IMG/VR virus record: IMGVR_UViG_3300013138_000614
Location: 1-21,349 of that record
DNA: 21,349 bases
Origin: a virus
Reading direction: 5' to 3' (one strand)
The position numbers and the translations under genes are program-made. Shown here in pieces: positions 5,572-10,020 of the stretch (its first letter is position 1; each line of letters opens with the position of its first letter). The notes beneath the pieces were generated by a model. That model was not told where the DNA came from, ran no database searches, and saw only the letters and a program-made list of their open reading frames with translations.

Positions 5572-5631
5572 TTATTTTATCACGGCGGCGGCCGTTGCAA
5601 ATAGGCAATGGCCGCACACGCGATAAAATAA
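5572..5631. repeat. 60-nt long inverted repeat / hairpin filling an intergenic gap
   Basis: The outer arms TTATTTTATC and GATAAAATAA (5572-5581, 5622-5631) pair perfectly over 10 bp. The inner arms 5588-5598 and 5605-5615 pair over 11 bp with one mismatch (G-U in plus-strand RNA), closing a 6-nt AAATAG loop. The GC-rich inner stem and AT-rich outer stem occupy most of the gap between the 63-aa and 161-aa genes. There is no U tract, so it is not a standard terminator. Confidence 0.8.
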
Positions 5632-6527: not shown

Positions 6528-6965
6528 TTATTTAGTTATACTTTTTGAAGGCGCTGGTATGGGGAGGCGGCAGTCTATCGCCCACCCCCGCGACACGCAC
6601 AACTCAATGGCGGCCAGGCGCAAGTTTGACAAGGATTTGATTTTTTGTAAATTTGTCCTTCTGGCAAAAGATCCAATGACTACGTCTCGCCATGTGCTCT
6701 TCTGTTCGTCATCATAGCCAGTCACCCATGCTCGCCACACTCCCTTCCGTATTCTCTCCGGCGCCGAAAATCGAATCGAGGACGTCACCACGTAAATAGG
6801 TCGATCCACAGAAAAGAAGCACAAACAATCGCCGTGCGTATCGGTCGCCAGGTATTGTTCCACTGTCCCCTTCCCGCCACCATCTGGCAAACGAACGCTT
6901 CGGATTCCCTGGCTGGCCACAAGAGCCCTTCGCACTGATCCATCCCCAAACCTCACGCGTATCAT
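6528..6965 (-). CDS. Hypothetical protein, first gene of the early leftward operon (145 aa)
   Basis: Not recognised. It begins MIRVRFGDGSVRRALVASQG, with several predicted strands (GDCLCFFSVDRPIYVVTSSI; VWRAWVTGYDDEQKSTWRDV) and a C-terminal stretch with NLRLAAIELCVSRGWAIDC. It is the first gene after the strong promoter at 7069-7097, with a leader of about 97 nt containing a hairpin. First early genes in phages are often takeover or regulatory proteins, but no helix-turn-helix or enzyme motif is visible. A second frame on the same strand (6712-6975) is shorter and less protein-like. The region looks GC-richer than flanking DNA. Confidence 0.6.
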   Translation of the reverse strand: MIRVRFGDGSVRRALVASQGIRSVRLPDGGGKGTVEQYLATDTHGDCLCFFSVDRPIYVVTSSIRFSAPERIRKGVWRAWVTGYDDEQKSTWRDVVIGSFARRTNLQKIKSLSNLRLAAIELCVSRGWAIDCRLPIPAPSKSITK

Positions 6966-6976
6966 ACACTGGCACG

Positions 6977-7035
6977 CTCGCGACGCTCAGCTCAATGTTG
7001 GCCGTTTATGGCGAATAATGAGCGACAATCGCGAG
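6977..7035 (-). promoter_or_regulatory. hairpin in the 5' leader of the early leftward operon
   Basis: Bases 6977-6989 pair with 7019-7024 and 7029-7035 to give 13 bp interrupted only by a 4-nt bulge (7025-7028). It lies between the predicted transcription start (about 7062) and the first ATG (6965), the same position as the leader hairpin of the second leftward operon. Confidence 0.65.
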
Positions 7036-7068
7036 GCGTTTTTTATGTTTTAATGCTTGTCTGTTCAC

Positions 7069-7097
7069 ATCATACAGCATAAAAAACAAATTGTCAA
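7069..7097 (-). promoter_or_regulatory. strong leftward sigma70-like promoter
   Basis: On the minus strand a perfect TTGACA (-35) is separated by exactly 17 bp from TATGAT (-10). The -35 box is embedded in ATTGTCAAT on the plus strand, resembling half of the inverted repeat at 7400-7421. It should drive the 6965-to-4779 gene block. Confidence 0.8.
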
Positions 7098-7127
7098 TGT
7101 TATTTGTCCACAACCCAAAAATGCATG

Positions 7128-7328
7128 GTGTCTTTGTTTGGATTGCCGCTAAAATTGCAGGAAAAAAACCTATATTTTTATCTTTTTTTTATTTTTTATA
7201 AAAAGATAAAAATATATAGTGTAAAAAATACACTAAAAAATTATTATAAGGTTTTGAGTCGTTTTTTTTTTTTGGCCATTTTTGTCGTTTTTATTGGCTT
7301 AAATTAGCGACAATCCAAACAAAGACAC
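7128..7328. repeat. 201-bp element with 25-bp inverted ends and nested hairpins
   Basis: Arms 7128-7152 and 7304-7328 are inverted repeats matching at 24 of 25 bases (GTGTCTTTGTTTGGATTG at the outer end). Between them lie a perfect 17-bp inverted repeat (7171-7187 with 7200-7216), a 7-bp hairpin (7217-7223 with 7229-7235) and a 12-base T run. No transposase frame and no clear target-site duplication is visible. The 67-aa frame across it is a by-product of the AT-rich repeats. Candidates are a cruciform origin element, a MITE-like insertion or a structured RNA. Confidence 0.8.
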
Positions 7329-7372
7329 GAGAAAAATAGTGGTTATAGAGTAATAGCATTTAAGACAATTTT

Positions 7373-7402
7373 TTGACTTATTCATAACAAAGTGGCTAGA
7401 TT
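7373..7402 (+). promoter_or_regulatory. possible rightward promoter with overlapping operator-like repeat
   Basis: TTGACT and TAGATT are spaced by 18 bp. An 8-bp perfect inverted repeat, ATTGTCAA / TTGACAAT (7400-7407, 7414-7421), overlaps the -10 box and the expected start region, a usual place for a repressor site. It is 750 nt from the first rightward gene, so it may instead make a regulatory RNA. Confidence 0.4.
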
Positions 7403-7421
7403 GTCAAGAAAAATTGACAAT
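7400..7421. promoter_or_regulatory. inverted repeat ATTGTCAA-N6-TTGACAAT, operator-like
   Basis: A perfect 8-bp dyad with a 6-bp spacer in the divergent control region. A related half-site, ATTGTCAAT (7091-7099), covers the -35 box of the leftward promoter, so one dimeric regulator could touch both directions. Confidence 0.5.
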
Positions 7422-7499
7422 AGTAAAAAACAGTGTTGATGTATATTTTTTTAAAATTATGAAATGAAATGTAATTATAGTCAAGTTGATAATACATAA

Positions 7500-7565
7500 G
7501 ATATGTTGTGGCGTATGCGAGAGTTGAGGTGCAAGGTGTGCGATATATTGTGGCGTATTCGAGAG
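7500..7565 (+). repeat. pair of 24-bp direct repeats, 42-bp spacing
   Basis: Bases 7500-7523 and 7542-7565 match at 22 of 24 positions around the core TTGTGGCGTAT. The 42-bp offset is close to four DNA turns, so two protein molecules would bind on the same helix face. A short GC-rich block with two small hairpins (7597-7619 and 7618-7629) follows. Confidence 0.75.
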
Positions 7566-7650
7566 ATGTAAAATTAAAACGGACCTGCCTTTCGCGCCTA
7601 TTTGCCGCCCTAAAATAGGGGAGTGCCCCCCACGCCCGCGCCGCCGACGG

Positions 7651-7668
7651 TTGTGTAAATTTACACAA
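7651..7668. promoter_or_regulatory. 18-bp perfect palindrome, operator candidate 1
   Basis: TTGTGTAAATTTACACAA is a perfect 18-bp palindrome. A second copy with one changed base is at 7738-7755. Two such sites 87 bp apart in a divergent intergenic region are typical of operators for a dimeric repressor, possibly with looping. Confidence 0.65.
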
Positions 7669-7737
7669 TACCTGACAGTATATCTATTAATATGTATAAT
7701 GCGACACGCATATTTTTAGCGCTTTATCAGCAAGTGC

Positions 7738-7755
7738 TTGCGTAAATTTACACAA
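7738..7755. promoter_or_regulatory. 18-bp near-palindrome, operator candidate 2
   Basis: TTGCGTAAATTTACACAA matches the perfect palindrome at 7651-7668 at 17 of 18 bases. It is followed by three runs of five G (7776-7792). Confidence 0.65.
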
Positions 7756-7865
7756 AAAGCTCAAAGTCCTCGAATGGGGGTGGGGGTGGGGGCACGGAAT
7801 AATTTTTATTTCTAGTCCTACCTGGCTCACAAATTTTCCTATAAAAAAGTGACCTATATCGTGTG

Positions 7866-8005
7866 GGCTCAAACGATAAAGGGAAGTTTGTATAGGAATT
7901 GGCTTAAAAGACAAAGGGAAGTTTGTATAGGAATTGGCTCAAACGATAAAGGGAAGTTTGTATAGGAATTGGCTTAAAAGATAAATGGAAGTTTGCATAG
8001 GAATG
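7866..8005 (+). repeat. four tandem 35-bp repeats (iteron-like)
   Basis: Units run 7866-7900, 7901-7935, 7936-7970 and 7971-8005. Units 1 and 3 are identical, and units 2 and 4 share a different left part, so the array is two copies of a 70-bp pair. The conserved core is GGAAGTTTGTATAGGAAT, with one change in unit 4. There are no variable spacers, so this is not CRISPR. Tandem sites of this kind are usual for replication initiator binding; the encoded SF3 helicase fits such a role. Confidence 0.85.
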
Positions 8006-8047
8006 GTCTCATAGTATTATTTTGATAATGTTATTCACACAATTATT

Positions 8048-8076
8048 TTGACATAAGATAAAGTTTATGAAATGAT
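8048..8076 (+). promoter_or_regulatory. possible rightward promoter before the head genes
   Basis: A perfect TTGACA (8048-8053) is followed after 17 bp by AATGAT (8071-8076), or after 19 bp by TGATAT. The -10 is weak. It is the closest plausible promoter to the first structural gene (8158). Confidence 0.4.
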
Positions 8077-8157
8077 ATGAGTGTAAGAGATACATTTATG
8101 TTTATTGCGGAAGATATTTTAGAAATTATTTTTTAATAATTTTTTATTTTTAAATTT

Positions 8158-8304
8158 ATGCCAATGACTAAGAAGGGGAAGAAGATAATGTCAGCGATGA
8201 TGAGTGAATATGGAGAAAAAAAAGGAAAGGAGGTATTTTATGCCAGTAAAAACAAGGGGAAGATCAAGGGGGTTGAGGGGAGGAGAAATCGTAGGAAAGG
8301 ATAA
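8158..8304 (+). CDS. Small basic phage protein, TKKGKKI...VFYAS.NKGKIKGVE type (48 aa)
   Basis: The frame runs from the ATG at 8158 to the TAA at 8302-8304. It encodes MPMTKKGKKIMSAMMSEYGE, then KKGKEVFYASKNKGKIKGVE and a basic tail. The pattern TKKGKKIM..M...YG.KKG..VFYAS.NKG.IKG is one I know from small phage proteins lying next to head genes, with no assigned function. It is lysine-rich and probably binds nucleic acid or a virion partner. Its last 65 bases overlap the start of the next gene in another frame, and the strong Shine-Dalgarno of that gene lies within it, suggesting coupled translation. It has no clear ribosome site of its own. Confidence 0.75.
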   Translation: MPMTKKGKKIMSAMMSEYGEKKGKEVFYASKNKGKIKGVEGRRNRRKG

Positions 8305-8740
8305 AGGCCTTGTTCCTATTGGTGGATTTGGTAGTGAGGTGGAGTATGTGGCGAGTAAGAATGGCAATGGAAAGAGTGTGGAGGATTTTTATCATGGTTT
8401 AGTTGAGACGGATGTTGCGAATAGGGCGCGGATGGATTTGCTAGAGGCAGATGGTAAGCCGAGGTTATGGGTAAAGGAGAAGATATTTCAATATCGCAAG
8501 TTATGGTGGGCTAGGTGGTTAGAGGCGATGGAATCTGGTGATAAGGATGTGAGGAAGAATGCGTTGATTGAGTACAACAAGTTGCAGGTGCGATTGGTTC
8601 CGACCAATGATGATAGTGGTGGAGTTGGTGGGATAGTGGTGAAGATAAATCAGTTCAATAATAATACGACCAAGATAGAGGAGAAGGTAATAGACATCGG
8701 GGATGGAAAGCCGTCGCCGCAGGTTGTAGATGTAAAATAA
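8240..8740 (+). CDS. Putative terminase small subunit (166 aa)
   Basis: The start at 8240 (MPVKTRGRSRGLRGGE) is preceded by AAGGAGGT at an ideal distance, the strongest ribosome site in the window; 12 codons further upstream are open but less likely. The N terminus is Arg/Gly-rich. The middle holds a helical stretch, KPRLWVKEKIFQYRKLWWAR, then KNALIEYNKLQVRLVP, followed by a glycine-rich turn and a strand-rich tail. No clear helix-turn-helix is visible. The assignment rests mainly on position, 5 nt before terminase large subunit, and on size. The small subunit would recognise the packaging site and load the large subunit onto DNA. Confidence 0.55.
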   Translation: MPVKTRGRSRGLRGGEIVGKDKGLVPIGGFGSEVEYVASKNGNGKSVEDFYHGLVETDVANRARMDLLEADGKPRLWVKEKIFQYRKLWWARWLEAMESGDKDVRKNALIEYNKLQVRLVPTNDDSGGVGGIVVKINQFNNNTTKIEEKVIDIGDGKPSPQVVDVK

Positions 8741-8745
8741 AAGTT

Positions 8746-10020
8746 GTGGAAATAACGTTGCCATACAATTTTGTTCCGATGCAGCATCAGATGGATTTCT
8801 TTAGTAGCAAGAAGCGATTTAAGATACTGGTGTTGCATCGGCGGGCGGGAAAGAGTGCGGCGGCGCTGAATGAGCAGATTATAAAGACGCAGGTGAAGAT
8901 GGGGATATACTATTATGTGCTACCGACATATCGGCAGGCGAAAGACGTTATGTGGCACAATTTAATAAGGAAGCATGTGCCGATGGAGCTTGTGGAGAAG
9001 AAGAATGATTCGGAACTGACGATATATTGGAAAAACGGCAGCATTCAGAAGTTTGTGGGGTGCGAAGACTATGACAAGCACCGAGGTGTTGACTGCGTTG
9101 ATGTAGTATTCGATGAGTACAGCGAGATGGTTGAGGATGTATGGACGGCTATTTTTCGGCCGATTCTGGCGAGGAATGGCGGGACGGCGACGTTCTGCTT
9201 TACGCCAAAGGGTAAGAATCATTCGTGGAAGCTGGTGAATCAGGCACGAGACGATGTCGACGAATGGGACGTGTTCGTTAAAACAGCAATTGATACTAAT
9301 GTTATTCCTCCGAAAGAGTTGGAATCTATCCGAAAGACAACCCCTGAAGCGCTATTCAATCAGGAATACATGGTGGACTTCATTGACAATGCGGGAGCGT
9401 TCTTTCGGCGAGTACGACAGAATATTTATCAGCATGATGGAAGTTATGATCCGCGCCACTCATATCAGTTAGGGATTGACCTTGCGAAATATAATGACTG
9501 GACTGTGATTACGCCTTTTGACCTTTGCACCTTCAAGGTACACACGCAAGATAGGTTCAATCAAGTTGACTGGAATCTACAGAAAGCGAGAATAGAGGTT
9601 GCGGCGCGGAAATACAACGATGCGCAACTGAAAATTGACCGAACGGGCGTTGGAGACTCGATAGTTGAAGATTTGGAGCGACAGGGGCTAAATATTGGAG
9701 AAGACGGTGGGGTGAAATTTAGTCAGAAGTCAAAGAATGATTTGCTGATAAATCTCGCGACGCTATTGGAGCAAGACAAGATAAAGATTCCCAATGACCC
9801 CGGACTAATTGCGGAATTAGAGGGGTTTCAATACGAGATAGACTCGAGTAATGGAAAATTAAAATTTGGTACGGTAAAGGGAATGACAGATGATAGAGTG
9901 ATGAGCTTGGCACTAGCGGTGCACAAGGTTGATAAACCATTATGGTCGCCGGAAAGAATAAAGGAGGACCGACGGATACATAGCAATGAAGAACACTTTG
10001 ATAAATTTAGTTGCTTTTAA
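8746..10020 (+). CDS. terL: Terminase large subunit (ATPase and nuclease)
   Basis: A 424-aa DNA-packaging motor. The N-terminal ATPase has Walker A HRRAGKS (residues 31-37), Walker B VVFDEYSEM (120-128) and the coupling motif FTPKG (152-156). The C-terminal RNase H-like nuclease has its acidic residues in GIDLAKYNDWTVI (Asp245), KIDRTGVGD (Asp298) and DDRVMSLALA (382-391). Together these cut concatemers and pump DNA into the prohead through the portal. The start is a GTG at 8746; the encoded MEITLPYNFVPMQHQ matches the usual short lead before Walker A, whereas the next ATG (8779) would trim it. Length is normal for compact terminases. The gene is flanked by small-subunit and portal candidates. 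Confidence 0.93.
   Translation: MEITLPYNFVPMQHQMDFFSSKKRFKILVLHRRAGKSAAALNEQIIKTQVKMGIYYYVLPTYRQAKDVMWHNLIRKHVPMELVEKKNDSELTIYWKNGSIQKFVGCEDYDKHRGVDCVDVVFDEYSEMVEDVWTAIFRPILARNGGTATFCFTPKGKNHSWKLVNQARDDVDEWDVFVKTAIDTNVIPPKELESIRKTTPEALFNQEYMVDFIDNAGAFFRRVRQNIYQHDGSYDPRHSYQLGIDLAKYNDWTVITPFDLCTFKVHTQDRFNQVDWNLQKARIEVAARKYNDAQLKIDRTGVGDSIVEDLERQGLNIGEDGGVKFSQKSKNDLLINLATLLEQDKIKIPNDPGLIAELEGFQYEIDSSNGKLKFGTVKGMTDDRVMSLALAVHKVDKPLWSPERIKEDRRIHSNEEHFDKFSCF

Follow-up and report, generated by a model that had tools for sequence, protein, structure and literature searches.

A repeat-rich gap between the divergent gene arms of a phage genome as a probable control hub and possible replication start

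We consider a 21,349-bp IMG/VR virus record over its full length (the window), which is probably a fragment; six long records among its terminase relatives measure 37-43 kb. According to the list of open reading frames (ORFs) and PHROGs, the genes before position 6966 run leftward and encode methyltransferases, a Mom-like protein and a primase/helicase, while the genes after 8157 run rightward and encode a 48-aa protein, a probable small terminase, the large terminase, a connector protein and further products. The gene orientation flips across the stretch between them, as in a divergent control region. The gap and the genes that bound it on the right are:

6966-8157, no strand: gap without recognisable genes between the two arms (ORF list, gap ranking, weak codon test, inner ORFs without family matches)
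8158-8304, plus strand: 48-aa conserved phage protein, first rightward gene (homologs in HMO-2011, HTVC033P and MW202711)
8240-8740, plus strand: probable small terminase subunit (position before terL only; family search without match)
8746-10020, plus strand: large terminase subunit (PHROGs and Pfam)

With its 1192 bp the gap is the largest in the window, three times the next largest (399 bp), and 93% of the sequence outside it is coding, in agreement with an earlier note that had described a gene-free divergent region of 1.2 kb in a genome with few spare bases elsewhere. Three ORFs inside the gap score as non-coding in the weak codon test, and family searches with them gave no match above threshold. 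The right edge is secured by homologs of the 48-aa ORF at 8158, which directly adjoin terL or portal in two of the three phages listed above. The left edge, the start of the leftward ORF 6528-6965, is less secure. A family search with this ORF gave no match, a search for relatives with the 145-aa leftward product found none, and its codon-position composition is odd (high GC at position 2); its coding status is therefore uncertain and the non-coding stretch could be longer. Reading this ORF as a structured leader RNA is unsupported (fold z = +0.49). Searches for relatives by the primase or the small terminase found none, and a terminase search of GTDB genomes for the host gave no match.

Some observations on the arms stand apart from the gap. 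Most genes of the window have no clear Shine-Dalgarno sequence; an exception is the gene of the probable small terminase, at 8240 (AAAGGAGG). An identical 22-nt sequence lies at the starts of two leftward genes, those of the Mom-like protein and a DNA methyltransferase (1543-1564 and 2851-2872), with a diverged copy at 815-836, and is possibly a shared regulatory or translation element. Between leftward genes, 5572-5631 is a 27-nt inverted repeat (81% complementary, 6-nt loop), possibly a terminator.

Within the gap we find the following predicted promoters, repeats and boxes:

6966-7062, minus strand: presumed leader of the leftward transcript; it contains a stable hairpin, and its start is deduced from the promoter
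7069-7097, minus strand: leftward promoter TTGACA-17-TATGAT (11/12 consensus match)
7085-7152, no strand: left arm of an imperfect mirror palindrome, the inner 25 nt (7128-7152) nearly exact (repeat search, shuffles)
7104-7112, plus strand: DnaA-box-like TTGTCCACA, one mismatch, 6 bp from the leftward -35 (box scan, composite motif)
7171-7216, no strand: AT hairpin with 17-bp perfect arms and a 12-nt loop; the 80-bp segment that contains it is the window's least stable (repeat search, shuffles, stability)
7304-7374, no strand: right arm of the mirror palindrome, the inner 25 nt (7304-7328) nearly exact (repeat search, shuffles)
7456-7484, minus strand: second leftward promoter-like site TTGACT-17-CATAAT (10/12, consensus match only)
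7500-7568, plus strand: two 27-bp direct repeats, 89% identical, 42 bp apart (repeat search)
7651-7668, no strand: perfect 18-bp dyad TTGTGTAAATTTACACAA, operator-like (repeat search)
7672-7700, plus strand: rightward promoter CTGACA-17-TATAAT (11/12 consensus match)
7738-7755, no strand: second dyad, 17/18 identical to the first and 87 bp from it (repeat search)
7866-8011, plus strand: tandem array of 35-bp repeats, about four copies of two alternating types (repeat search, shuffles)
8031-8039, plus strand: DnaA-box-like TTATTCACA (box scan)
8048-8076, plus strand: rightward promoter TTGACA-17-AATGAT with a TG extension (10/12 consensus match), probably that of the packaging operon
8079-8158, no strand: AT-rich segment, the second least stable 80 bp of the window (stability calculation)

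The promoters are scored against a sigma70-type consensus, and the host may differ in its promoter and DnaA preferences. The gap holds 12 promoter-like sites, about twice the 5.4 +/- 2.5 of shuffled sequences, and only the best of them convince on their own. Of the three 11/12 matches in the whole window (both strands), two lie here and face outward. The rightward promoter at 7672 is flanked by the twin dyads, and near-identical dyads on either side of a promoter are a classical layout of established phage and bacterial operators. No phage regulator for these dyads is recognised in the fragment. Downstream of the same promoter are three tandem TGGGGG units (7775-7792) that could possibly form a G-quadruplex; a structured RNA in its transcript is unsupported (z = -0.85).

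The gap also contains the strongest inverted and the strongest direct repeats of the window, and no other part equals it in both kinds when sliding windows are compared. The AT hairpin scores 48.2 bits against an inverted-repeat shuffle maximum of 43.7, and the 35-bp array 115 bits, where the best of 200 dinucleotide shuffles gives 31.9; elsewhere in the record, the inverted repeat at 5572-5631 reaches 46.4 bits in its window and a direct repeat at 18-19 kb, inside a gene, 72.5 bits. An exact scan of IMG/VR for the 35-bp core found none. The array ends 36 bp upstream of the promoter with the TG extension, and 3' of it TTATTCACA, the promoter and the unstable segment follow in this order. The features that the earlier note had listed in the gap are largely recovered: outward, near-consensus sigma70-type promoters (their activity is a prediction), a hairpin leader (the 97-nt stretch downstream of the leftward promoter, fold z = -4.07), a pair of operator-like dyads, direct repeats, palindromes (the AT hairpin above the shuffle maximum and the perfect dyad), a GC-rich block at about 7577-7650, and iterons, in the sense of iteron-like tandem direct repeats at which an initiator may bind.

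An iteron origin is expected to combine DnaA boxes with an AT-rich unwinding region, and near the array there are one TTATTCACA and the unstable 8079-8158. In the gap as a whole, one box matches TTATNCACA exactly (8031), one clear box has a single mismatch (7104, beside the leftward promoter) and none is an exact TTATCCACA. The three 80-bp segments of lowest stability in the window all lie in the gap. The cumulative GC skew, proposed earlier as a check for an origin, has its minimum at 6993 and so inside the gap; it is rejected as proof because the skew flips with gene orientation, and as just three of six relatives' records have their minimum in the gap, it does not decide the origin.

Does a similar arrangement exist upstream of terL in other phages? 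Sixty-four terminase loci were fetched, and a scan for promoter pairs covered 54 loci (700 kb). The DNA of the gap has no similarity of note to phages, plasmids or the fetched loci. In the nearest terminase clade (55-60% identity) the genes upstream of terL mostly share its orientation, and the divergent layout is therefore not a fixed family trait; it is common in a more distant terminase group of about 40-45% identity. Conservation in relatives, to which the earlier note had tied its reading, is thus found by half: the layout recurs in one group and is mostly absent from the nearest clade, and the sequence is not conserved. Of the 18 mirrored promoter pairs that match at 11/12 or better, 16 are located 0.7-2.1 kb upstream of terL, and reversed controls give none; a few of these loci are near-duplicates (L043/L044 and L054/L055 have a central sequence in common), which somewhat reduces the number of independent cases. 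The paired strong promoters of the relatives have facing -35 boxes 22-124 bp apart, whereas the 11/12 promoters of the window are 575 bp apart.

The DnaA box TTATCCACA occurs 13 times in 13.3 kb of the relatives' gaps (shuffle mean 0.18, maximum 2) versus 18 times in 230.6 kb outside, an enrichment of about 12-fold. A composite motif of DnaA box plus promoter is found nine times in 721 kb, once at the leftward promoter of the window, six times in hubs of relatives and twice elsewhere; as the motif was widened to T/C after the window had been seen, its match at the window's leftward promoter is suggestive only. The mirrored-promoter hubs of relatives (such as L046, L047, L063 and L067) share with the window the divergent arms, a gap roughly 1 kb before terL, and a DnaA-like box beside a strong promoter. 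They differ in having consensus DnaA boxes between the paired promoters and, in four relatives, a structured leader RNA, whereas the window has a large palindrome and extra repeat classes between its promoters. The titles and abstracts covered by a literature search hold no description of such an arrangement.

The leader of the four relatives is the following:

L040 4680-4994, L043 1932-2245, L046 8577-8883 and L063 8426-8725, minus strand: conserved leader RNA of about 310 nt, directly downstream of the leftward hub promoter

Of its 68 predicted pairs, 35 are changed on both sides, compared with at most 11 in slid-partner controls, and none of 500 shuffles reaches the observed values; these figures are biased towards the structure, as it was predicted from the very sequences on which it is scored, and a sample of four is small. 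This leader is a candidate for a new structured RNA of these phages. A search of the window for the element did not find it, and Rfam gave nothing at gathering score in the window or the relatives; two sub-threshold matches in the gap, to eukaryotic families, are taken as chance. L096 was rejected as a further member, as the matching part falls within a 581-aa ORF and the remainder cannot be aligned. A second conserved leader class is seen at the same place in L055 (8357-8655) and L052 (3139-3440), both on the minus strand, and a further class just downstream of leftward promoters in L039, L045, L047 and L067 (minus strand) is the one with a long pyrimidine tract.

From the observed features, the gene orientation and the recurrence of the layout in relatives we infer promoter activity, a regulator, a role for the array and an origin as follows. 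The gap would be the divergent control hub of a tailed phage in which DNA replication probably also starts, a reading to which we assign a probability of roughly 0.6. The promoter at 7097-7069 would drive the replication and DNA-modification genes, and those at 7672-7700 and 8048-8076 the packaging and head genes. Binding of the two dyads by a dimeric regulator is probable and would repress the 7672 promoter, perhaps by looping, and the array upstream of the 8048 promoter probably binds several copies of a phage protein, either an initiator or a late activator. Replication would start in the hub, probably helped by DnaA and local transcription. The switch between left and right arms that had been proposed earlier is well supported by the gene orientation, the outward promoters, the operator-like dyads and the layout in relatives; the origin proposed with it is plausible rather than proven, on the strength of the array, the least stable DNA, the two DnaA-like boxes of the window's gap and the DnaA boxes concentrated at the matching place in relatives.

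The largest feature of the gap can be read in another way. The imperfect mirror palindrome spans 290 bp (7085-7374), and what had been described as a 201-bp inverted-end element (7128-7328) is its inner part; the inverted ends are confirmed (24 of 25 nt match), and no other copy appears in exact-match scans of the record, IMG/VR or GTDB contigs, which would miss diverged copies. It is possible, if somewhat doubtful, that this segment is a miniature transposable element whose chance insertion split the leftward promoter from the remainder of the hub and which has no control role. Like a MITE, it is short, holds no ORF of note and has 25-nt terminal inverted repeats. It also folds strongly (z = -9.6), shifting the ends by 3-5 bp places it between copies of a 6-bp AAAAAT repeat, and without it the leftward -35 would lie about 75 bp from a weak facing -35 at 7373, near the spacing in relatives. 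Unlike a MITE, it is found in a single copy and has no clear target duplication (none at the 25-nt ends), and the symmetry continues outside: past the ends, both sides resume matching at an unchanged offset as far as the leftward -35, with a score that 0.5% of shuffles attain. Ends and flanks together score 41.9 bits, not above the shuffle maximum. Such symmetry is less expected of a simple insertion, and an insertion amid a mirrored promoter pair could look alike. Five single-end matches to the inverted ends do not include the inner part of the repeat and seem fortuitous. At the other extreme, the palindrome, with its DnaA-like box by an outward promoter and its central AT hairpin, might form the origin together with the array as initiator site, one structure setting the transcription of both arms and replication, an idea that we consider distinctly improbable.

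Points against a hub with an origin are that we found no homolog of the gap sequence, that the nearest terminase relatives mostly lack the divergent layout, that the window's 11/12 promoters are spaced more widely than those of relatives, and that its gap has no exact TTATCCACA. A purely transcriptional switch, with the promoters, dyads and array as operator or activator sites and replication starting elsewhere, for example in the missing part of the genome, is in our view possible, if somewhat doubtful. It would suit the array, since 36 bp upstream of a promoter is a normal place for activator sites, and the single exact DnaA-like box in the window's gap; DnaA boxes can, moreover, regulate transcription without an origin. 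Against it stand the strong enrichment of these boxes at the equivalent place in relatives and the location of the window's least stable DNA in the gap. That the array or the whole gap is a packaging start (pac or cos), as the earlier note had allowed, we regard as very unlikely: its position upstream of the terminase genes is all that favours it, nothing found ties gap or array to packaging, and the promoter, the DnaA-like box and the AT-rich DNA after the array have other ready uses.

The reading as a control hub that probably includes a replication start also has a parallel in lambda. Outward promoters with dyad operators between two arms resemble the pL/pR region, and tandem repeats beside AT-rich DNA resemble the lambda ori, whose iterons lie inside the O gene. 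The window differs in that no repressor gene is recognised between its promoters, its first rightward genes are packaging genes and its repeat unit is 35 bp. The gap thus offers a compact target for experiments on the arm switch of an uncultivated phage group, and possibly on its origin, and the mirrored promoters and DnaA boxes of the relatives, at one spot upstream of terL, provide a hypothesis for where their replication may start.
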